From Desulfurococcales archaeon (GTDB lineage Archaea > Thermoproteota > Thermoprotei_A > Sulfolobales > Ignicoccaceae), in the NCBI GenBank assembly GCA_027081755.1, contig JALWJF010000062.1:1-40166 (forward strand): a stretch of 40,166 nt of DNA. Direction: 5' to 3'. A program made the position numbers and the translations under genes. The notes beneath the pieces were generated by a model. It saw nothing but the letters and a program-made list of their open reading frames with translations. It ran no database searches and was not told where the DNA came from. How positions within the stretch are numbered: position 1 is the first letter of the stretch; every line of letters begins with the position of its first letter. This document shows positions 18,855 to 36,186 of the stretch, one piece after another.

Positions 18855-20126
18855 ATGTCTTCTGGTAAACCTCGTAGGGAATTCTTGAAGAGCCTCCTGG
18901 CTGGAGGGGCTGCTCTAACTGTGTTGAGCAACATAGACTGGGCCAAGGCTGCTGAAATGGCTGCCGAAGCAGTAAGAAAAGGGAAGATAAACATAGTTTG
19001 GTTTGAAGGACAGAGCTGTACCGGTGACACCACTTCCATAATCCAAGCCACCGATCCAGACCTAGTTCAGGTACTGCTAGGAGCTTCTCACTTAGCCGGA
19101 CCCGGAACTGTAGGACTAGCGTTCCACGACACAATAATGCCCGAGTGGGGAGAAGGGGCTATTGAGATATTACATCTAGCTGAAAGAGGTGCCTATGATC
19201 CTTACGTCCTAGTACTTGAAGGCTCCATACCTGACGAGAACCACGCACGAAAGCATTGTAATGATCCTAACCACTGCGGTTACTATTGCTTCGTTGGCGA
19301 AGAGAATGGTAGAGTGGTGACTTGTACCGAATGGGTCAGGAGACTTGCCAAGAGGGCTGTGGCCGTGCTCACATTTGGTGCATGTGCATCTTATGGAGGC
19401 ATACCTGCTAACAAGGTCCTCGAGCCCCCACCAGGATGGACTTATCCAAGCTGGAGCCTAGCTCCCACCGGAGCTATAGGCTTCTTTGACGATCCCATTA
19501 GAGGATACAAAGGTCTCATAAGCAGAACAGCCGATATGCCCGAGTTCACTCCGTACTTCAAGTACATCTATGAGGACTGCGATCCTATACTAAGCCCAGA
19601 TAGCGGCTGTAAGCCCGCAGTGGCAGTACCCGGCTGTCCAGCAAACGGAAACGGTATGCTTAGAGTACTAGTTCACATGGTACTAGCTGCTCTATATCCC
19701 AACTTAGTCCCACTGCCCAAGGCCAGCCAATGGCTAGACCAATATGCTAGACCGAAGTATATCTTTGGTCGCACCGTTCACGACCAGTGTCCTAGGGCTG
19801 GTTACTATGCTGCTGGTGCCTTCAGAGTAAACCCCGGAGATAACGATGCCAAGTGTCTCTTCGCCGTAGGCTGTAAGGGACCAGCGTCCAACTGTCCATG
19901 GAATAAATATGGCTGGGTAAACGGCGTGGGAGGTCCAACGAGGACTGGAGGTGTGTGTATAGGCTGTACTATGCCCGGCTTCAGTGATGCTTTCGAACCC
20001 TTCTACAAGCCTCTACCGGCACCAGCAACTCCAAGTGCTCCAGCAGCTTTAGCTACAACAGTAGGTGCCGCTGCTGTAGGTGCAATAGTTGGATATGCAA
20101 TGTCTAAAAAGGGTAAGAGTGAGTGA
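18855..20126 (+). CDS. hynS: Membrane-bound [NiFe] hydrogenase small subunit
   Basis: The electron-transfer subunit of an uptake hydrogenase (423 aa). A Tat signal (RREFLK at residues 7-12 plus a hydrophobic stretch) and a C-terminal hydrophobic helix (about 395-418, followed by Lys residues) place it on the outer face of the membrane. Iron-sulfur ligands are seen in GQSCTGD (Cys55), FGACASYGG, PGCPANG, VHDQCPRAGYY, NCPWN and CIGCTMPGF. The normal CxxC of the proximal cluster reads C-T-G-D: Asp58 replaces the second Cys. It is the first gene of the hynS-hynL-isp1-isp2 operon; the ATG at 18855 follows GGTGAG. The 15-base gap to hynL contains GGAGGG. Confidence 0.93.
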   Translation: MSSGKPRREFLKSLLAGGAALTVLSNIDWAKAAEMAAEAVRKGKINIVWFEGQSCTGDTTSIIQATDPDLVQVLLGASHLAGPGTVGLAFHDTIMPEWGEGAIEILHLAERGAYDPYVLVLEGSIPDENHARKHCNDPNHCGYYCFVGEENGRVVTCTEWVRRLAKRAVAVLTFGACASYGGIPANKVLEPPPGWTYPSWSLAPTGAIGFFDDPIRGYKGLISRTADMPEFTPYFKYIYEDCDPILSPDSGCKPAVAVPGCPANGNGMLRVLVHMVLAALYPNLVPLPKASQWLDQYARPKYIFGRTVHDQCPRAGYYAAGAFRVNPGDNDAKCLFAVGCKGPASNCPWNKYGWVNGVGGPTRTGGVCIGCTMPGFSDAFEPFYKPLPAPATPSAPAALATTVGAAAVGAIVGYAMSKKGKSE

Positions 20127-20140
20127 AGGAGGGACGAGTC

Positions 20141-22159
20141 ATGAGTGGAAGGAGCGAAAAGAGGAATAATGTAAATACTAAGATAAATGATCCAAGGTTC
20201 AAGAATAAGAAAGATCCGAAATTAGTATTGCTAGCGCCCAACGTGAAAGGAATTAGAGGCAATGTTGCCGAAATATACATAGACCCTATTACCAGGATCG
20301 AAGGCCACTTAGGGCTGAGGGCAGAAGTTGACGTAACCACTAGAAGGACGAAGAATACTTGGGTCTTCGCGACGATGTTCAGAGGATTCGAAGTGTTCAT
20401 GAGGGGTAGGCCTCCAGAGGACGCAATATCTCTGGCCTCTAGGGTCTGTGGAGTATGTGGAGCAAGTCACGCCAGCGCTGCAACTATGGCAGATGACATG
20501 GCATTAGGTGCAGTACCAACACCACTAGGAGTCGCCCTAAGAAACATGGCCTTTGCAATGACTGACTTGATATACGACCACTCAATAATTCTGAACTTGT
20601 TGGGAGGTCCAGACTACAGCGAAATAGTCGTAAGCAAGTTGACTCCCCATTGTTGGGAAGCTGCTAAGACCACCCCAGCGGAATACTCAGCTATTCACGG
20701 TTACCGCTACATAGCGGACATAATGAAGGACTTGAACCCAATAGTGGGCAAGATATGGCAACTAGCAGTTAAATATCAAAGGATAGCTAGGGAAGCTGGA
20801 GTACTTCTATACGGAAGGCACTCCCACCCAAGTACCTTGGTACCCGGAGGAATAGGTACTGACTTATCAACCGGTAACTACCTACTGGAGGAATACATAT
20901 TCCGCCTAACCCGACTAACGGCTTGGGTTAAGTTCGTAGTAGCAATATGGATGGACTTAGCTGACTTCTACGTCAAGAACTGTGACTATGCTAAGAATGG
21001 CTATACTTACACAAAGCCCGTATTCTACAGCTCTGGAGCTTTCGACGACCCAGAGACATACAGCCAACTAGGAGATGATTACAAGACAATATATGAGAAC
21101 ATAGACAAAGCTGCAAAGAGGAGGGCTACGCCACCGGGCCTCTATATAGGCGGTGAACTGGTTACCGAAAATATCACCGAACATCAGAGGAATGTAGTAG
21201 AGCTAGTTGACAGCGCCTTCTATGACGAGTGGAAAGGCAAGACAACGCTATTCACCAAGACGGATCCGGCCGGTAACCCGTTGGTAGGAGGCAACGAAGA
21301 GCTCATTTGGTACCACCCATGGAACAAGACCACCATACCAAAACCAAGCGACATCAAGTGGAGCGGTAAGTATAGCTGGGCTGCAACAGTTAGGATCTAC
21401 TATAATGGTAAATTATATCCATATGAAGTAGGACCAATGGCGAAGGTATGGGTAACGGCCCATAGCAACCTAAAGGGCTGGGTCGAGGAAGAAGGTGGTG
21501 CCGTAAAGCACGGTGGAGGCAAAATAGAAGTAACGTTACCACTGTCCAGAGACGTAACCGACTTGCCCAAGGGCACTTGGGAAGAGGTCAAGTTCACCTA
21601 CAAAGCACCGGAAATAAGCTCTACCATAGAAAGGGTTAGGGCAAGAGCCTTTGATATGGCACTTGACATAATAGATGCTTGGGCTAGTGCCCTAAAGGCC
21701 GTATATTACATAAATACTAAGGGAATGACTAAGGCATCGAGACCTTGGAAAGAACCGGCCTTTGCGCTAGGTTTCGGTCAGCTAGAGGTACCAAGAGGAA
21801 ACGTAGAGCACTGGATAGTTGTCAAAAACGCGCGCATAGCCAATTACCAGATCCACGCACCCACGACTCAGAACGTAGGTCCGAGAGCTCCTAAGGGCGA
21901 ACTAAGGAAGTACATACCGAACGACCCATGGGTAACCAAGAGCCCAGAAGGTATACCGCTGAGTCCCTTCGAAGCTGCAGCACTGAACACAGTAGTAACT
22001 GAAGAGGTCAAACCGGAGGAGTGGACAGGCTTAGACTTCGTGAGAGCTATAAGGAGCTTCGACCCATGTATATCATGTGCTGCACACATAGAATTCATCA
22101 AGGATAAGAAGGTACTAAAGAGCGTAAAGAAGTTCCTCACCAATGCATGCAGCCTGTAA
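20141..22159 (+). CDS. hynL: [NiFe] hydrogenase large subunit
   Basis: The catalytic subunit (672 aa) with the NiFe(CN)2CO site. L1 motif RVCGVCGASH gives Cys103, Cys106 and His110; L5 motif DPCISCAAH gives Cys643 and Cys646. The protein ends 23 residues after His649, a basic tail that the maturation protease would remove; most tails are about 15 residues. There is no signal peptide, so it is expected to be exported by Tat together with HynS. It is longer than usual (about 570-600), with a 40-residue basic N-terminal extension and internal insertions. The ATG at 20141 lies seven bases after GGAGGG. Maturation genes (hyp, protease) are not in this window. Confidence 0.95.
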   Translation: MSGRSEKRNNVNTKINDPRFKNKKDPKLVLLAPNVKGIRGNVAEIYIDPITRIEGHLGLRAEVDVTTRRTKNTWVFATMFRGFEVFMRGRPPEDAISLASRVCGVCGASHASAATMADDMALGAVPTPLGVALRNMAFAMTDLIYDHSIILNLLGGPDYSEIVVSKLTPHCWEAAKTTPAEYSAIHGYRYIADIMKDLNPIVGKIWQLAVKYQRIAREAGVLLYGRHSHPSTLVPGGIGTDLSTGNYLLEEYIFRLTRLTAWVKFVVAIWMDLADFYVKNCDYAKNGYTYTKPVFYSSGAFDDPETYSQLGDDYKTIYENIDKAAKRRATPPGLYIGGELVTENITEHQRNVVELVDSAFYDEWKGKTTLFTKTDPAGNPLVGGNEELIWYHPWNKTTIPKPSDIKWSGKYSWAATVRIYYNGKLYPYEVGPMAKVWVTAHSNLKGWVEEEGGAVKHGGGKIEVTLPLSRDVTDLPKGTWEEVKFTYKAPEISSTIERVRARAFDMALDIIDAWASALKAVYYINTKGMTKASRPWKEPAFALGFGQLEVPRGNVEHWIVVKNARIANYQIHAPTTQNVGPRAPKGELRKYIPNDPWVTKSPEGIPLSPFEAAALNTVVTEEVKPEEWTGLDFVRAIRSFDPCISCAAHIEFIKDKKVLKSVKKFLTNACSL

Positions 22160-22228
22160 TCCATATTTTCTTGACTGATTGGTTAAGTAGCCTTTTTAGT
22201 CAAGTTTCCCTTTATGGGGGTGAGAACC

Positions 22229-23062
22229 ATGAATGTAGGTGGATGGGGATCACCAAACGATATTTTCAACTTTGCCGTATACTACTTACTAGTACCATCG
22301 ATATTCATATTCAGCGCTGGAGCTACATATAGGATAGTAAAACTGCTCGTAAACACCAAGTGGTCCAAGGTCCAGAAGGGACACAATGGATGGGGCGAGA
22401 TAATAAAAGGTCTAATAATGACCTTCTTGAGACCGATAATATTTAGCGCTAAAGTGAAGCCAGACGACTTCATAGCCGGAATACTGCTGCTTCACTTGGT
22501 CGGCGTAATTCCAGTCCTCTTCCTACTAGGTCAACACATATCTTGGTGGAGCTACTATTTCCCAGCATACAAGGCACTATGGATATTCAGTGTACCGGAA
22601 AGCATCAGTACAAGCGTGCTGACTGTGACCTCCAAAGTAATTCCAAGTAGTAGCATGTCATTTACATTCGTTAACACAATATGGGGACCCTTGGTAGTAA
22701 TACTTAACGGTGACCTCATGAGCTTATTCATACTGATCGCCATAGGCTACAAGTGCGCAGTAAGGCTAACCGAGACAGTAATGAAACACAATATAAGCCC
22801 AGCTAGGTACGGCGACTACATAGCCTACCTACTGCTCTTCCTAATAGTGTTCTTTGGCTACGCCGCTGCTAGGCACTGGCCATCCGAGAATACTGCAGTT
22901 TACAGAAACGTACTAGGACTCCACGTACTCTTTGCAGAGCTTCTGTTCATGTACATACCGTTCAGCAAGTATTGGCACTTCGTATTCGGTTATTGGTACG
23001 GCAAACTCCATGAATGGTACGATAATGATATTAAGAGAGGAGAGATGGAAGTTGAGTTGTAA
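22229..23062 (+). CDS. isp1: Isp1-like membrane subunit (NarI/HdrE-type cytochrome b)
   Basis: A 277-aa integral membrane protein with about five hydrophobic helices (for example YYLLVPSIFIFSAG, GILLLHLVGVIPVLFLLG, YIAYLLLFLIVFFGYAAA and LHVLFAELLFMYIPF). His residues near helix ends (LLHLVG, GQHISWW, ARHW, GLHVLF, KYWHF) could bind heme b, as in NarI/HdrE/DsrM. In Acidianus and related archaea this gene type is isp1, linking hydrogenase to the quinone pool. The ATG at 22229 was chosen because GGGGGTGAG lies just upstream; an ATG at 22214 lies before it. The 69-base gap after hynL is pyrimidine-rich and could hold a weak terminator or internal promoter. Confidence 0.85.
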   Translation: MNVGGWGSPNDIFNFAVYYLLVPSIFIFSAGATYRIVKLLVNTKWSKVQKGHNGWGEIIKGLIMTFLRPIIFSAKVKPDDFIAGILLLHLVGVIPVLFLLGQHISWWSYYFPAYKALWIFSVPESISTSVLTVTSKVIPSSSMSFTFVNTIWGPLVVILNGDLMSLFILIAIGYKCAVRLTETVMKHNISPARYGDYIAYLLLFLIVFFGYAAARHWPSENTAVYRNVLGLHVLFAELLFMYIPFSKYWHFVFGYWYGKLHEWYDNDIKRGEMEVEL

Positions 23063-23077
23063 AGGGGGTGATGAGTC

Positions 23078-24508
23078 ATGAGCGCTATGGGTGGAGATAT
23101 GGATATGAGTAAAATGATGGAAATGCTAGCAAGCCAGAGGACTGACATAAAGACCGCCATAAAGAAGATGTTAAGTAAGATAGACGCAGTAACTATACAC
23201 TACATAGAAGACTGCCTAAACTGTGGAATATGTGCACCATCTTGTCCGTTCTATAAAGCTGGTCCAGAGTACACCCCAGTTAACAAGGCAGAACAAGTAA
23301 GAAAGATCTATAGGAAGGAAATGACTATAATAGGTAAACTATTGGGAGGTCTAGCAAATGCGTGGGAGCCTAAGGACGATGCTGACATGAAGAAGCTCAT
23401 GGACTTGGCTTACGCTTGTACCAACTGTGGTCATTGTTACTACACCTGTACTGTGGGAATTCATAGCGGTACTATGGTCGGACTTCTGAAGTCAATGCTT
23501 ACAGCTGCCGGCTATGTACCAACGATACTCAACTTGTTCGAAGCAGTAGAAGTGAACAACATGCACATGAAGATACCAGGCTTGGCGAAGCTATGGAATG
23601 ATGCAATAACTGAGGCACAAAACAAATACGGAGCTATAGAGTTCGAAAAGAAAGGCGCAGACATATTCTTCATGGGCTGGTTGACTGATGCATTTATGAT
23701 GAGGGAAGGATTCATAGCTACTATAGGCATATTGAACAAGTTGAAAGAACTCGGAATAAGTTGGACAACGTGGAAAGAGCCCTTAGCAGTGAGGGCTCCA
23801 ATATCGGTAGTCATAGGCAGAGGCGAGAACGCTGCCCAAGTCGTTAGCAGGATAGCCAAATACGTAGACGAACTAAGACCAAAATACGTAGTATTGATGG
23901 ACGGAGGATACCCGTATCCCGTATTCCGCTTCAACATGTATAACACAATCGTCAAAGCACTAGGTAAGAAGCCCGAGTGGAAAATTATACACATCACCGA
24001 ACTGTTAGCAGAACTCCTCAGAGCTGGTAAGATAAAGTTCAAGAAGAGTAACGACCCCATAACTTGGCACGATCCATGTCAGCTAGGGAGGCATTCAAGA
24101 GTCTTCGAACCTCCGAGAGTTGTACTAAAGGCAGCCAGCGTCGGCTATAGAGACTTACCGCATAACCGCGAAATGAACTACTGCTGTGGAGGCGGTGGTG
24201 GTATAGGCTGTATGCTGAGAGAGGTAAGACTGATGATGGGACAAATAATAGGACAAGAAATAAGGATATCGCCAGAAGAGGAGGAATTCGAAAGGAGAGT
24301 TGAAGAGAAGCATAAAATAGCAGTGAGAAGGAAGATGGAAGACATAGCAAAGGTTCAACCAAAACTAATAGCAACCGCTTGTCCAGCTTGCGTAGAAACG
24401 ATTAACAGAGGCATAAGGTGGTTTGGCGAAGAACTGGGCATTGCAGATGCCAAAGCTATACACATATCTGAATATGTCGTTGACAAACTAGAAATAACTA
24501 AACACTAA
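23078..24508 (+). CDS. isp2: Isp2-like iron-sulfur protein (HdrD/DsrK family)
   Basis: A soluble subunit (476 aa) that relays electrons between hydrogenase and the membrane or an acceptor. A two-[4Fe-4S] ferredoxin domain has Cys46/49/52/56 and Cys114/117/120/124. The C-terminal cysteine-rich region keeps one CCG-type set: Cys334 (HDPCQLG), Cys369-Cys370 (YCCGGGGG) and Cys435/Cys438 (CPAC). The place of the first CCG set (IFFMGWLTDAF and around) has no Cys. A Met-rich N-terminus precedes the ferredoxin domain. The ATG at 23078 is preceded by GGGGGTGA, 15 bases after isp1. Last gene of the operon; it overlaps the convergent archaemetzincin by 11 bases. Confidence 0.87.
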   Translation: MSAMGGDMDMSKMMEMLASQRTDIKTAIKKMLSKIDAVTIHYIEDCLNCGICAPSCPFYKAGPEYTPVNKAEQVRKIYRKEMTIIGKLLGGLANAWEPKDDADMKKLMDLAYACTNCGHCYYTCTVGIHSGTMVGLLKSMLTAAGYVPTILNLFEAVEVNNMHMKIPGLAKLWNDAITEAQNKYGAIEFEKKGADIFFMGWLTDAFMMREGFIATIGILNKLKELGISWTTWKEPLAVRAPISVVIGRGENAAQVVSRIAKYVDELRPKYVVLMDGGYPYPVFRFNMYNTIVKALGKKPEWKIIHITELLAELLRAGKIKFKKSNDPITWHDPCQLGRHSRVFEPPRVVLKAASVGYRDLPHNREMNYCCGGGGGIGCMLREVRLMMGQIIGQEIRISPEEEEFERRVEEKHKIAVRRKMEDIAKVQPKLIATACPACVETINRGIRWFGEELGIADAKAIHISEYVVDKLEITKH

Positions 24509-30047: not shown

Positions 30048-30466
30048 AGTTCGTTTGTGATGCTATGCTAGGAAAACTAGCCAGATTTTTGAGAGTTCTC
30101 GGCTATGACACTCTGTATACTCAAGAAAAAGATGAACTTATCTTAAAGAAGTATAAGGATCGGATACTATTGACCAAAGATAAGGAACTTTGCAAAAGAT
30201 TCGAGGGTCATTGCATATACATTCATTCCCAAGATGTCAAAGAACAATTAGAAGAACTTCACATAACCCTAGGTTTACCACTAAAAATGCCAGAGAGACC
30301 TTTAAGGTGTTCATTATGTAATACCGAATTGGTCTATGTGGGAAAGACCAGAGATAGGGATTTATGGGTCTGTCCCAAGTGCGGTCAACCGTACTGGAAA
30401 GGCTCACATACGGAGAGGATGGAAAGAATGTTTAGAAACATAAGGAAGAAGTACATCATTTCTTGA
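30032..30466 (+). CDS. Mut7-C RNase domain protein (DUF82, PIN-like) with zinc ribbon
   Basis: A 144-aa protein of the Mut7-C family. The PIN-like fold shows VCDAMLGKLARFLRVLGYD (first catalytic Asp), an acidic EKDELIL segment and RILLTKDKELC (further acidic site). A C-terminal zinc ribbon has CSLCN and CPKCGQPYWKGSH, ending in a basic helix. The family is predicted to be an RNase; a substrate is not known. The ATG at 30032 lies inside the end of the CBS gene, so the two are probably translated together. It converges on napH with an 11-base overlap. Confidence 0.88.
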   Translation: MQHTLKFVCDAMLGKLARFLRVLGYDTLYTQEKDELILKKYKDRILLTKDKELCKRFEGHCIYIHSQDVKEQLEELHITLGLPLKMPERPLRCSLCNTELVYVGKTRDRDLWVCPKCGQPYWKGSHTERMERMFRNIRKKYIIS

Positions 30467-31406
30467 ATCTGAAGCCGAGCTTTAGTACCCCAGACGGGCA
30501 GACTTCTACACACCTTCCACAATGGAAGCAACGATAATCCTTAACGTCTTTCATTGTGTTCACATACTGGCCATAGACATCTATGTTCATTGGGCAAACC
30601 ATACTACAGAGATTACACTTAGTACATTTGGTAACGTCCTCTACCTTTATTCTGAATGGGCTATACTTGTTCATTACAAAGCCATAGAAGTTGCCCACTG
30701 GACATACGTATTTGCACCAGAACCTCTTTACCTTAAACGCCTTTTCGGCAACGATGTTCACTACTAAAGCTACTATTATGAAAGTAACATAAGCAAGTGC
30801 CGTACCCAGAGCTGCTCCGGGCAGTCCCATAGCAATTGCTACGAGTTCGTCAAAGAACTTAGTAGTCCCCGCTATTGGCGATATCGTAGTATAGAACGGT
30901 ATGCTGAAGTATACTGACAGTATGAAGAATATGGCCATCGATATTATTGGTACTACTTTCTCCTTGGCATTTGCCTCGTGATACTTCATGTGATAGCTAT
31001 CCTTGGGTAATGAGAGCTTTTTCTCAAAGATGCTGAAGAGTAGGTCCATTGGACAGACCCATCCACAGAAGAACCTTCCCAGGAAGCTGTACAGTACTAC
31101 AACTACGGCTACTCCTATCACTGTCTGGAGTATTACGTGGTGTGCTGAACCCCACAGCTCTATGAAAGCCCAAGGATCAAACATAGGTATCTCGCAAAAT
31201 ACCCTGCTCGAGGCCAAGGAACCTTCTAAAGGCATTGAGCAAGTAACGTTGCCATGGAATGTTGGCTTTACTATATAGAAATATATGGGTAATTGTAACG
31301 CAAAACCCAAGAGTATGAGCACTTGTAGTGCCCTTCTAGCTAGGGTCCATTTCCCTCTGGGCGGAGTTCCTTTGATCCACCTCTTGATCATAGATTTGCT
31401 TACCAT
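30456..31406 (-). CDS. napH: NapH-like quinol dehydrogenase membrane subunit
   Basis: A 316-aa membrane iron-sulfur protein of the NapH type that takes electrons from quinol. About four to five helices (ARRALQVLILLGFALQLPIY; VIGVAVVVVLYSF; ISMAIFFILSVYF; AYVTFIIVALVVNIV). Two CxxxCP loops, CGWVCPMD and CKYVCPVG, follow helices, and the C-terminal domain has two clusters, CTKCNLCSMVCP and CFHCGRCVEVCP. The ATG at 31406 has GAGGTGA five bases upstream, overlapping the napG stop. Last gene of the nap-like operon. No heme-binding CxxCH is present. Confidence 0.88.
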   Translation of the reverse strand: MVSKSMIKRWIKGTPPRGKWTLARRALQVLILLGFALQLPIYFYIVKPTFHGNVTCSMPLEGSLASSRVFCEIPMFDPWAFIELWGSAHHVILQTVIGVAVVVVLYSFLGRFFCGWVCPMDLLFSIFEKKLSLPKDSYHMKYHEANAKEKVVPIISMAIFFILSVYFSIPFYTTISPIAGTTKFFDELVAIAMGLPGAALGTALAYVTFIIVALVVNIVAEKAFKVKRFWCKYVCPVGNFYGFVMNKYSPFRIKVEDVTKCTKCNLCSMVCPMNIDVYGQYVNTMKDVKDYRCFHCGRCVEVCPSGVLKLGFRFKK

Positions 31407-31416
31407 GTCTTTCACC

Positions 31417-32361
31417 TCACAGACCCGGAGTTAACCTTTTGGCCTTCCTAACGTTTATCAAGTAGTCGGCGTTTAGGGAGCTTCTTATAGTTGCTTTGTA
31501 CGGATCATTATACTCTGCATCAAAGATAAGTTTTATATATTCGTCATACGTCATACCAGTATTCTTGAAGTTTTTGACCCTCTTCTCGTACTCATCCTTA
31601 GGCAAGACGTGTATAGCTGCTCCTGGAACTGGACATGAACTCATACATAAGCCACAACCGTTACACTGATCCGGTTTGACTCTTGTATGCTTGCCCCACT
31701 CGTTATAGGTAAACTCGAAGACCTCGGCCCCTCTGGGACAAGCTGATGCGCAGCTCTCGCAGTCACCACTGTTCCAAGCCCAACATAGATCTGGGTCTAT
31801 CAGAGCAATCCCCATCTTGACTTCTCTTGGCTCAATCTTTGCCAGCGCATCTGTAGGACATACCTTTACACATTCCATACAAAGCTCACATGGATGGTTG
31901 AACACATCGTATGCTACTGGGATCCCTACCTCGGCGGGATTTCCTTCGAATCCCTTTAACCTTAAAACCCCATATCCCATGTTGCTACAAGCAGTATAGC
32001 ATAAGGTACATCTGATGCATTTGCTAGCGTAGTTCTCATCAGCTCCGGGAGGAGGAAGTTCATAATGGTCTTCCTTGTATGGCTTTGTATACGTCATACA
32101 TTTGTCCGGCAATAATGGATTCTTCACTATAATCTTATTCCCTATTTTTTCAGTCAAGCCTAAGGCTTGGTAATATGCTATCTTGTCTTTAGCTTTGAGT
32201 ATCCACGGTTCATAATAATAGCCTTCACAGTCTCCCAATTCATTTGCCTTTTCTAAAGCTTCCATAGCCTTAGAGGTAGTTGGAAGTAAACTCGAAACGG
32301 CAACAAGGAGGATCCCTTTGAGCAAATTCCTCCTAGTATCGTTCAAGCCTTGAATACCCAA
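31417..32361 (-). CDS. napG: NapG-like exported ferredoxin-type protein
   Basis: A 314-aa protein with a Tat signal (TRRNLLKG, residues 9-16, then a hydrophobic stretch) and four [4Fe-4S] cluster motifs: CIRCTLCYTAC, CELCMECVKVCP, CESCASACPRG and CNGCGLCMSSCP. NapG passes electrons from the NapH quinol site to the terminal reductase on the outer face of the membrane. A 50-60 residue segment between the signal and the first cluster is larger than in E. coli NapG. The TTG start at 32361 lies 25 bases from a TATA box, suggesting a leaderless mRNA; a TTG at 32346 is possible. Confidence 0.87.
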   Translation of the reverse strand: MGIQGLNDTRRNLLKGILLVAVSSLLPTTSKAMEALEKANELGDCEGYYYEPWILKAKDKIAYYQALGLTEKIGNKIIVKNPLLPDKCMTYTKPYKEDHYELPPPGADENYASKCIRCTLCYTACSNMGYGVLRLKGFEGNPAEVGIPVAYDVFNHPCELCMECVKVCPTDALAKIEPREVKMGIALIDPDLCWAWNSGDCESCASACPRGAEVFEFTYNEWGKHTRVKPDQCNGCGLCMSSCPVPGAAIHVLPKDEYEKRVKNFKNTGMTYDEYIKLIFDAEYNDPYKATIRSSLNADYLINVRKAKRLTPGL

Positions 32362-32381
32362 GGATAATGGGCAAGAGGAGG

Positions 32382-32389
32382 AAATAAAT
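32382..32389 (-). promoter_or_regulatory. TATA box for napGH
   Basis: ATTTATTT on the minus strand is centred about 25 bases before the napG TTG. Transcription would begin at or next to the start codon, so napGH can be expressed apart from napA. Confidence 0.45.
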
Positions 32390-32427
32390 AGTACGTTCGA
32401 GATACATGAAAAAGATTTTTGTCTAAG

Positions 32428-35400
32428 TTATTCTAACTCTACCATACACTCTGGACAATAGTCCTTAAGCTTTATGTCGTAGTTGGGCTTGGCAGTCTGC
32501 TCCTTGGACCATATTCCTCCTGGCGGTATCTCGTCGGGCCTAGCCTTCCTTATCCTGGCTGCACACGTCTTGAAGTCTGGCTGGAAGAAGTACGGCTGTA
32601 CGTCGTAATTATCAAGCGTTAGTGCATTAGCTAACTTGTATTGGTCGAACCATGGTATGAAGGTGTAGTCGGCCCTCGGACCTCCTAGACCGGTCTTCGG
32701 GTTCAGTATCCTTACTGGCACCACAACCTTACCTCTTGGACTCTCTACCACTACCCAATCGCCAGGCTTGAGTCCTAGCTTCTTGGCAGTCTTCACGTTG
32801 ATCTCTGCATAAGCGCTTGGCTTAACTCTATACAGCTCTGGTACCCTACATGTCATAGTACAGGTGTGCCAATGCTCGATCACTCTTCCGGTGGTGGCGA
32901 CCATTGGGTAGCCGTCATCATTCCTTACATCTATTACTGTTCCGTCTGGTAGCCTGTACCTCAAGTTGAAGCCGGGTGCTTCAGCCGGTGCTAGCGCTAT
33001 CTCGAAAATAGCCTCTATGTCACCCTTGCTGATAGCCAATGCGTCACCCCAGCTCATTTGCTCTAGCAGTTGTAGTCCCCTCTCTGGGTCACCGCTTGCT
33101 GGTTCAGCTATGTACTTCTTGGTTACTACGAACGGTCCCTTCGGGGCAGTGAAGACGCTTATCTTACCCTTGAAGACAGCGTCTGCGTCGAGCTTCTCGT
33201 GGGTTATTATTACCTTCTTGTTGATAGTCATCTTGCCGGTCTTGTGGTCTAAGTTCACCGGTAACCATGGCCTGGCCCACATAGTCATTCTACCGGTGTA
33301 CTTGGCATAGAAGATGTTGTACCAGTCTTTCGGTAGGTTCCACTTCTTCTTGTACTCCATATCATCAATCTCTTCCACTATCTTCTTTAACACCCACTTC
33401 AGTAGTACTGGGTTGTGCCATAGGTGACCGAGCCACTTCTTCTTGTGTATCGGGTGCAGCTTGGTATCGTCGTAGTTCATTATGAAGTTGCGTATCTCTT
33501 GCGGATCGTTCATGTTCTTTATCTTGTTGTATATGTCCTTAATGACCTCTGGGTCCGGCATTAGCGGATCATACGGATATACGTACCTCATAGCGCTCTC
33601 GTACTTGTCGTACCTCCTCTTCACGCTCGGGTTGACGGCATAGGTCCAAGGCCACGGCCACCTGAAGCCGTGTTGCTGCTGCCAAGTCCTCTTGCGGAAT
33701 AGATTCCTGTCCGGATAGCTGAAGTCGTAGTAGGTGTTCTTACAGAGTGCCCTTATGTCGTAGTTCCATATGCGGTCGAGTACCTTCATGTGCCACTTCT
33801 TCTCTTGACTCTTCTCTACTACGTACTGAACCCAGCTCTTGTAACCAGCCTTCTTGGCAGCCTCATCAACCCTTTCTGGGAAGAAGACGCTCACTATGCC
33901 CTTCGGTACTAGGCCCTCGTCCTCCCAGGCCTTTCCTAACATAGCGAATATGATGTGGTCACCGATGGCTTCTCCGTACGGCTTGATCACGTAGCCGGCT
34001 ACGGAGTACCTCCTCTCGGTACAGCCGTAGAAGAACTCCTTCTCGGCGTATGCTGCTGCTGGAAGTACTAGGTCGGCCACGTCGGTAGTTCTGGTTGGGT
34101 AGATGTCGTTTACCACTACGAACGGAAATGCTGGATCGTCGTCATGCGGCTTAGCCATGCCTAGCCTGAACTTGAAGACGTTCGGGAGGCTCTGACCTGG
34201 GTTGGTCTCGGCTATCCAGATGATCTTGATCTGCCCGGCGTTCACACGGCGGAACATCTCTATTACGTGAGGTCCGGGTACTGGGTGGACCCAGATCTCC
34301 TTCATGGTCTTCTGGATTACGCTCTCTGGATAGCCCAATTCTCTCATTAACTCAGCAGTTACTTTCCTCCAGATCTCCTCTACCTCATGCCTAGCCTCAG
34401 CATTGGCAATCAGCCTTCCGTAAGGCAGTACGTGGGCTAGACCTCCTTGGTCCCTTATTCCTCCACACGCGTTGGGCTGTCCGGTTAGGCTTAGCGTGCC
34501 CTTACCATACTTACCTAAGTTACCACTCAGTGCTAGGAAGTCCATTATAGTGTTTATCGAGTGCACACCTTGTATCTTCTGGTTTATGCCCATCGTCCAG
34601 AGCACTAGGGTGTTGCCCTTAGCCATCCACTTAGTAGCGAGTCTCATGGCCTCCACTGGGTCAATCTCCACGAACGGCTCGGTGCCCTCCATGTTGACCT
34701 TAGCCGGATCCAGCTCGCCAGCTTGGATGAGCTTTTGGGCTAGGCTCCTCTTGATTAGTGGCATCTCGTCACCGAACAGTATCTTGACCATTACCTCTGG
34801 CTTGTAAAGCTTGATGAAGTCTACGAATAAGGCGAATCCCTTCTCCCAGTCTCTCTCTATCTCGTCCTCACTCCCGTATTCCTTACCTAAGCTTGGATAG
34901 AATGCGTAGTTACTCTTGACGCTGGCAGTAGTACCCATATCCCAGACCTTGTTGAGATCCTTTAGGTTGTTGTACTTAGTGTTGTAATCCTTGAGAGCCC
35001 AAGTCTTTTGGCTCTGTTTGATTATCGCGAAGTCCACGTGTCTTCTGAGCCAAGTTAGATCTAGCCATTCGGGGTTCTCACAAGTGACCTTTCCATTAAC
35101 TGGATCAGCCTTACACTTGGCCAGCTCGTAGAGAAGTATGTATATCATGGTATTCATGAAGGCTACGTCCATGGACCACCTCAGAGGTAGCCACAGATCC
35201 GATAGTACACCGGTCCTAGTCTTCCTTGGATCGGCCAGTATGATCTTCGCCTTGTCGCCCATCCTTTCCTTGACCCTAGCTATCCTACCGAAGAGTATTG
35301 GGTGGGCTTCGGCAGTGTTGGTACCTATCAGTAGGAAGGTATTAGCGTGCTCGCCGGTCTCTGGCTCCGGTATGTCAATTAGGTCATAGCTGGTTTCTGG

Positions 35401-36186
35401 CTCGTCCGCTCCGAAGCCGGTTATGTAACCTCCTACTGCAGAGACCATACACATTCTTGGGTTGCCGTCTAGGTTGTTGGTGTGAATACCTCCCTTGGTT
35501 AGCTTGTTGATCACATAGCTCTCTTCAGTTCCTAGCTGTCCACTTCCATAGTAAGCGAAGCTGTGGGGACCGTACTTCTGGAGTGCGTACTTGAACATCG
35601 CAGTGAAGAACTTTACGGCAGTGTCCCAATCAACCTCAACGAAATTATTGAAGAGGAAGTCGTCTTGGACGAGCTTGGCACTTACGTTCTTGGTTACTTG
35701 TCTATTCTTAACCCTGGGAGCAAGCTTTATCTCTTCAGGCTTAATCGGTGGTCTGTTGAGGCCGGGTATGATCCAGTCCTTGTTGACCAGAGGTCTCTTG
35801 AGCCTGGCCTTGGCGGCTTGCTTGTTACCACCGTGACCTATGGCCTTGTGAATGTAGAATGCCTTAGTACACATCGCACCGTGGTTGACGGGGTAGGCAG
35901 GCATTCCCAAGATGGCATACATCTCAATGGCTAGATCAGTCTTGGGGTCTACCAGGGCTTGGGTCTGGACGCCACAACCGGTTCCACAGAACCTACAAGG
36001 TCCTATAGGTACTATGGTCATGTAGGGTCTGCCTTCAGCTTGTAGATGCATAACCTCGTTTATGCTAGACTTTATTTCTCCCTCGAGTTCCTTGTTGGTA
36101 AGCTTAGCTGCCCTTCCGACCGTCGCGAGGGCTGCGCCCAGAGCCAGGGCCTTGAGTAGGTTCCTACGCGCTTTGTTCACTGTCAA
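32428..36186 (-). CDS. napA: NapA-like periplasmic-type nitrate reductase, oversized
   Basis: A molybdopterin oxidoreductase (1252 aa against about 830 for bacterial NapA). The Tat signal is ARRNLLK (6-12). The [4Fe-4S] site is Cys64/67/71/106 with Lys108 after the last Cys. Cys246 in NPRMCMVSAV aligns with the Mo-ligand Cys of NapA, and GFGADEPETSYDLID is characteristic. The C-terminal domain has TGRVIEHWH and MTCRVPELYRVKPSA, ending in TCAARIRKARPDEIP, again NapA-like. Extra sequence lies about 120-175 and roughly 870-1080. The TTG at 36186 follows a TATA box by about 38 bases; a GTG two codons on is possible. The substrate is inferred to be nitrate; this is not proven. Confidence 0.87.
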   Translation of the reverse strand: MTVNKARRNLLKALALGAALATVGRAAKLTNKELEGEIKSSINEVMHLQAEGRPYMTIVPIGPCRFCGTGCGVQTQALVDPKTDLAIEMYAILGMPAYPVNHGAMCTKAFYIHKAIGHGGNKQAAKARLKRPLVNKDWIIPGLNRPPIKPEEIKLAPRVKNRQVTKNVSAKLVQDDFLFNNFVEVDWDTAVKFFTAMFKYALQKYGPHSFAYYGSGQLGTEESYVINKLTKGGIHTNNLDGNPRMCMVSAVGGYITGFGADEPETSYDLIDIPEPETGEHANTFLLIGTNTAEAHPILFGRIARVKERMGDKAKIILADPRKTRTGVLSDLWLPLRWSMDVAFMNTMIYILLYELAKCKADPVNGKVTCENPEWLDLTWLRRHVDFAIIKQSQKTWALKDYNTKYNNLKDLNKVWDMGTTASVKSNYAFYPSLGKEYGSEDEIERDWEKGFALFVDFIKLYKPEVMVKILFGDEMPLIKRSLAQKLIQAGELDPAKVNMEGTEPFVEIDPVEAMRLATKWMAKGNTLVLWTMGINQKIQGVHSINTIMDFLALSGNLGKYGKGTLSLTGQPNACGGIRDQGGLAHVLPYGRLIANAEARHEVEEIWRKVTAELMRELGYPESVIQKTMKEIWVHPVPGPHVIEMFRRVNAGQIKIIWIAETNPGQSLPNVFKFRLGMAKPHDDDPAFPFVVVNDIYPTRTTDVADLVLPAAAYAEKEFFYGCTERRYSVAGYVIKPYGEAIGDHIIFAMLGKAWEDEGLVPKGIVSVFFPERVDEAAKKAGYKSWVQYVVEKSQEKKWHMKVLDRIWNYDIRALCKNTYYDFSYPDRNLFRKRTWQQQHGFRWPWPWTYAVNPSVKRRYDKYESAMRYVYPYDPLMPDPEVIKDIYNKIKNMNDPQEIRNFIMNYDDTKLHPIHKKKWLGHLWHNPVLLKWVLKKIVEEIDDMEYKKKWNLPKDWYNIFYAKYTGRMTMWARPWLPVNLDHKTGKMTINKKVIITHEKLDADAVFKGKISVFTAPKGPFVVTKKYIAEPASGDPERGLQLLEQMSWGDALAISKGDIEAIFEIALAPAEAPGFNLRYRLPDGTVIDVRNDDGYPMVATTGRVIEHWHTCTMTCRVPELYRVKPSAYAEINVKTAKKLGLKPGDWVVVESPRGKVVVPVRILNPKTGLGGPRADYTFIPWFDQYKLANALTLDNYDVQPYFFQPDFKTCAARIRKARPDEIPPGGIWSKEQTAKPNYDIKLKDYCPECMVELE

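Follow-up and report, generated by a model that had tools for sequence, protein, structure and literature searches.

The ligand set of the proximal iron-sulfur cluster is thought to affect the oxygen response, the overpotential and the catalytic bias of [NiFe] hydrogenases, and non-cysteine ligation of this cluster has mostly been discussed for aerobic enzymes. The window (the whole stretch of DNA analysed, 40,166 nucleotides) raises the question of what an aspartate does in place of a proximal-cluster cysteine in the putative uptake hydrogenase of an Ignicoccus-type archaeon from hot vents. The small subunit gene, hynS, is an open reading frame on the plus strand (18855..20126) with matches to PF14720 (1.3e-24), PF01058 and the PDB entries 5aa5 and 2wpn. 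It encodes 423 amino acids with an N-terminal twin-arginine (Tat) signal and a C-terminal hydrophobic segment; its NiFe_hyd_SSU_C and Oxidored_q6 domains and its pairing with a large subunit carrying CxxC motifs are those of a group 1 [NiFe] small subunit. Alignment to 5aa5, 2wpn and 87 other small subunits identified the first proximal-cluster motif as C55-T-G-D58 (19017..19028, plus strand), with aspartate replacing the second cysteine; the codons are TGT for C55 (19017-19019), ACC, GGT and GAC for D58 (19026-19028). A phmmer comparison with solved structures matched D58 without a gap to two residues, the aspartate of HofK (CTGD on CDGD, 5aa5) and the second cysteine in the [NiFeSe] motif CTGC (2wpn), confirming the first-pass annotation that an aspartate occupies a ligand position. 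Its statement that the rest of the ligand motifs are intact held as well, since all other proximal, medial and distal ligands were found by alignment. On the plus strand, these are the proximal-cluster cysteines C177 (19383..19385) and C261 in PGCP (19635..19637), each a cysteine in 60 of 60 ingroup sequences, the distal-cluster ligands H309, C312, C334 and C340 (19779..19874; cysteine columns invariant, His309 by alignment) and the medial-cluster ligands C347, C368 and C371 (19893..19967), accompanied by Pro361 as in standard [3Fe-4S] enzymes. HynS has the 3Cys1Asp pattern in full: aspartate takes the place of the second Cys in the proximal CxxC, and the three other cysteines are kept. The two supernumerary cysteines of the O2-tolerant 6-Cys [4Fe-3S] MBH (CTCC and WGC in HyaA) are absent from HynS, which has glycine at both places (CTGD, YGG). 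AlphaFold2 models built from 6-sequence alignments reached a mean pLDDT of 43 (full length) and 51 (trimmed), too poor for reading the cluster geometry.

The window genome consists of 1.41 Mb in 159 contigs, and D58 could in principle stem from a sequencing or assembly error or from a decaying gene. However, hynS of three other genomes of the window genus, 81-94% identical, encodes CTGD in every case. One of them (L002, 94% identical to the window) is an independent MAG and the other two (L010 and L011) are single-contig genomes; the aspartate codon is GAC in the window and L010 and GAT in L002 and L011. Between the window and L002, dN was 0.04 and dS 1.54, and the operon is intact. As the aspartate recurs in four genomes with both codons, and dN lies far below dS, sequencing error was rejected as the source of D58, and the chance of error or decay is negligible.

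The small subunits used to place the residue came from genomes of the class (229) and the phylum (398) and from two families, with plasmid-borne bacterial references added. The tree of 88 small subunits (IQ-TREE, columns 53-60 left out) was a quick one with SH-aLRT support only, in which long outgroup branches meet. The window HynS fell inside a crenarchaeal 1g-type clade of 60 rows (SH-aLRT 98), in which 43 rows have Asn at position 58, 14 Asp, two Glu and one Cys, a count that excludes seven SUL2-type rows, all with Asn58. The sole Cys58 belongs to L044, a long-branched second copy (CAGC) in genome G171, the main copy of which, L038, reads CAGE. Glutamate at this position (CAGE) is found in L037 and L038, where a 3Cys1Glu cluster would be possible. 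Asn58 also occurs outside the clade in three short HucS-like small subunits (L054, L056, L057) that are probably of group 2e. The outgroups have mostly Cys, with Asp in group 1h. Aspartate had first been taken as a departure from a cysteine norm, which does not apply to this enzyme class; because the crenarchaeal clade is nearly free of Cys58 and mostly carries Asn, the relevant contrast is Asp against Asn, and the contrast with Cys describes the outgroups. The check proposed at first, whether Asp is conserved among relatives, gave a divided answer: it is present in all four hynS genes of the genus, but Asn stands in 43 of the 60 sequences of the clade.

The operon places the enzyme further. 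On the plus strand, hynS is followed by the large subunit gene hynL (20123..22159; PF00374, active-site motifs CGVC at residues 109-112 and DPCISC at 649-652), a gene for an isp1-like membrane subunit (22214..23062; weak TmcC/HmcE similarity, homologous to the gene in the Isp1 place of canonical 1g operons) and one for an isp2-like DsrK/HmcF-type Fe-S protein with a CCG domain (23078..24508; from similarity, domain match and comparison with canonical 1g operons). HynS gave the only PF14720 match in the window genome, and PF00374 matched HynL and, in a weaker two-part match, a sequence on contig C21. Group 1g is defined by isp1 and isp2 genes lying between the small and large subunit genes (PMC11018855). 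HynS resembles this group (e.g. Acidianus Hca) in belonging to the same small-subunit clade, with about 56-63% identity to canonical members, in its Isp1/Isp2 partners and in its Tat signal, and H2 oxidation by the group is anaerobic and sulfur-linked (PMC11018855). It differs in having Asp58 instead of Asn58 and in the gene order, which is hynS-hynL-isp1-isp2 in the window (18855-24508) and the canonical hynS-isp1-isp2-hynL in three relatives (L117, L118, L119). Since both isp genes are present but follow hynL, we call HynS only 1g-like, although it branches with the crenarchaeal 1g small subunits and would work as they do; the HydDB class itself rests on the large subunit. A placement in group 1h was not found, as HofK and the mycobacterial homologue sit on branches that do not belong to the 1g clade. 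Hsu2, the SUL2 hydrogenase of Sulfolobales, which has been associated with H2 oxidation under aerobic conditions (PMC11018855), is likewise of Isp type, shares the order S-L-Isp1-Isp2 and has no Cys58; it is only about 42% identical and has Asn58, Asp at the third proximal cysteine and Ser at the first medial cysteine. In the SUL2-type rows (L045-L050, L052), the position of C261 is Asp (AADP in place of PGCP), the first medial Cys is Ser and a Cys stands at 361, so that their proximal cluster would have two cysteines only; the gene order was confirmed in L116.

With Cys58 lost, a nearby cysteine might supply the missing ligand, a possibility that the first-pass annotation had named as counting against its reading. 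The window protein does contain six non-canonical cysteines, C135, C141, C145, C157, C242 and C252, and C135 and C141 are confined to the window genus. Against this, C145, C157, C242 and C252 are all absent from the Sulfolobales 1g enzymes, themselves without Cys58, and the other Asp lineages have neither C135 nor C141; for these reasons a substitute cysteine is not needed in general. Among the 60 ingroup sequences, exactly nine cysteine columns are invariant where covered (C55, C177, C261, C312, C334, C340, C347, C368 and C371), and no further conserved cysteine able to replace ligand 58 was found. With the canonical cysteines invariant and no others so, no substitute ligand is evident, and replacement by a nearby cysteine is very improbable, although the extra cysteines may have a ligand role specific to the genus. 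They are encoded at 19257-19325 and 19578-19610; C145/C157 and C242/C252 are widespread in 1g, and the set might form disulfides or another metal site.

We propose that D58 probably completes, as fourth ligand, a proximal [4Fe-4S] cluster of the 3Cys1Asp kind in the uptake hydrogenase of an H2/sulfur respirer. HynS belongs, as small subunit, to a group 1g-like [NiFe] enzyme of the crenarchaeal Isp type in which Asp58, together with C55, C177 and C261, would ligate the proximal [4Fe-4S] cluster, both iron ligation and nuclearity being suggested by homology. On this putative route, electrons from H2 would leave the proximal cluster for the medial [3Fe-4S] and then the distal cluster, and would reach sulfur respiration through Isp1/Isp2. 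The closest precedent is group 1h HofK of C. necator (5aa5), which like the window has Asp at column 58 and the three remaining proximal cysteines; according to a passage of PMC7174314 citing Schaefer 2016, its proximal [4Fe4S] cluster is coordinated by aspartate. HofK differs in carrying the medial Cys361, in being an O2-insensitive enzyme and in its separate branch of the tree. Furthermore, Alteromonas HynS in which the homologous Cys was changed to Asp or Asn (C81D/N) is still active (PMC4070099). Of the precedents cited at first, both the Asp of an actinobacterial-type enzyme and the Asn of cyanobacterial HupS were recovered from alignment and literature.

The asparagine enzymes, however, open a different view of the site, in which the proximal cluster would be [3Fe-4S] and Asp58 would sit beside the empty corner but bind no iron. 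Group 2a HucS of M. smegmatis (PDB 7uur/7utd) and cyanobacterial HupS share with the window the absence of the second cysteine of the proximal CxxC, but they have Asn in its place, and Huc is an aerobic, high-affinity enzyme with three [3Fe-4S] clusters. HucS has its Asn at the aligned position (CSGN), and cryo-EM and EPR assigned all three of its clusters as [3Fe-4S] (PMC10017518); as Asn goes with [3Fe-4S] in HucS, this fold accepts a proximal cluster that lacks a fourth ligand. Asn is the main state of the crenarchaeal clade as well, and Azotobacter ferredoxin I, according to reference titles in PMC13111528, has an Asp close to a [3Fe-4S] cluster. Asn alone does not dictate [3Fe-4S], though, because Nostoc HupS, with Asn here, gave two [4Fe-4S] clusters and one [3Fe-4S] by EPR (PMC4463661), and for HofK the passage quoted above reports the equivalent Asp as a ligand of a [4Fe-4S] cluster. 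We consider a [3Fe-4S] proximal cluster unlikely in HynS. A labile Asp-ligated site, which would let the cluster change from [3Fe-4S] to [4Fe-4S] and back as redox state or iron supply varies, appears less likely still: the Asp-ligated [4Fe-4S] cluster of Pyrococcus ferredoxin has a labile iron (PMC4070099) and [3Fe-4S] clusters, when exposed, are able to acquire Fe2+ (PMC13111528), but that same passage on HofK describes its Asp as bound.

Position 58 has changed repeatedly. The tree of 88 small subunits requires at least 12 changes of its full state and at least seven between Asp and non-Asp, minimum numbers on a tree with several forks open and with gain and loss indistinguishable. Asp58 lineages are the window genus, G042/G043/G379/G117, G182/G183, L066 with L068, L093/L094 and group 1h. 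L066 and L068 have Asp58, whereas the other sampled members of their genus have Asn58, and one Asp/non-Asp change falls between near-sister species of a single genus. The surroundings of the residue differ too. All 43 Asn58 sequences of the 60-row clade have an acidic residue at position 54 or 56 (D-C-A-G-N or A-C-E-G-N) and, at 87, a basic one. Asp58 is often accompanied by Ser at 54, Thr at 56 and a residue at 87 that is not basic, as in the window genus, L023/L024 and L068; L066 retains Arg87. Residues 54 and 56 are presumably part of the proton path of the small subunit, an assumption that the literature we found did not confirm and on which we do not rely. The sisters L066 (Asp) and L070 (Asn) (SH-aLRT 99) are 90% identical overall, but differ at six of the nine residues 54-62 (scan-corrected shuffle P 0.0037, for a pair picked after seeing the data). 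Around the second proximal cysteine, L066 and L068 have T173, S178 and S179, and four Asn-type rows of the genus A173, A178 and A179; the Ser codons vary by lineage (AGC/AGT or TCC/TCG). Tree-aware pair tests of D58 with 54, 56 or 87 mostly pointed in the same direction, with four supported pairs, a number at which significance is unreachable. These patterns are suggestive of a remodelling of the residues around the proximal cluster along with position 58. No link of D58 to the medial Pro-to-Cys change was seen, as Asp occurs with both Pro361 and Cys361. A tentative and rather doubtful extension is that one orthologous anaerobic family evolves back and forth between an Asn58 state with three ligands, [3Fe-4S] like the clusters of Huc, and a [4Fe-4S] cluster ligated by Asp, with a co-varying pocket (54, 56, 87, 178, 179); near-sisters would then have different relay potentials and perhaps a different catalytic bias.

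That Asp58 tunes the proximal-cluster potential relative to the Asn-type enzymes is a plausible speculation, and the shift may go either way, with Asp ligation lowering the potential and [3Fe-4S] raising it. The peculiar (Asp) ligation in dark protochlorophyllide reductase probably lowers the potential (PMC4157233), and [3Fe-4S] clusters are generally about 250 mV higher (PMC10017518). A role of the Cys58 loss in O2 tolerance is unlikely here because nearly the whole crenarchaeal clade lacks Cys58. The role of group 1g enzymes, with Isp1 and Isp2 as partners, is in H2 oxidation that is anaerobic and linked to sulfur (PMC11018855). The first-pass annotation had argued for both points, an anaerobic setting and a function of the Asp other than oxygen tolerance, and they agree with this comparison. 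I. hospitalis uses H2 as its only electron donor and has one operon for the uptake enzyme (PMC2614490). Its small subunit (Iho_1366) and the hydrogenase partner subunit are among the abundant proteins, and the levels of both roughly double when it is co-cultured with Nanoarchaeum (PMC3149612).

Non-cysteine at position 58 is the rule in a crenarchaeal clade in which anaerobic sulfur respiration with H2 is the way of life of the characterised members. From the sequences compared, Asp58 is no oddity but a feature of anaerobic enzymes that is conserved in the genus and switches naturally in the clade. The crenarchaeal set offers a natural Asn/Asp comparison series, with close pairs such as L066 and L070 for direct measurement, and if the Asn forms truly hold [3Fe-4S], it would represent a natural and repeated switch of cluster type. 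Elsewhere in the window, the minus strand carries NapH-, NapG- and NapA/Fdh-like genes at 30456-36186, with a catalytic subunit of 1252 amino acids; they seem to correspond to the Igni1377-1380 complex of I. hospitalis, the substrate of which is unknown.
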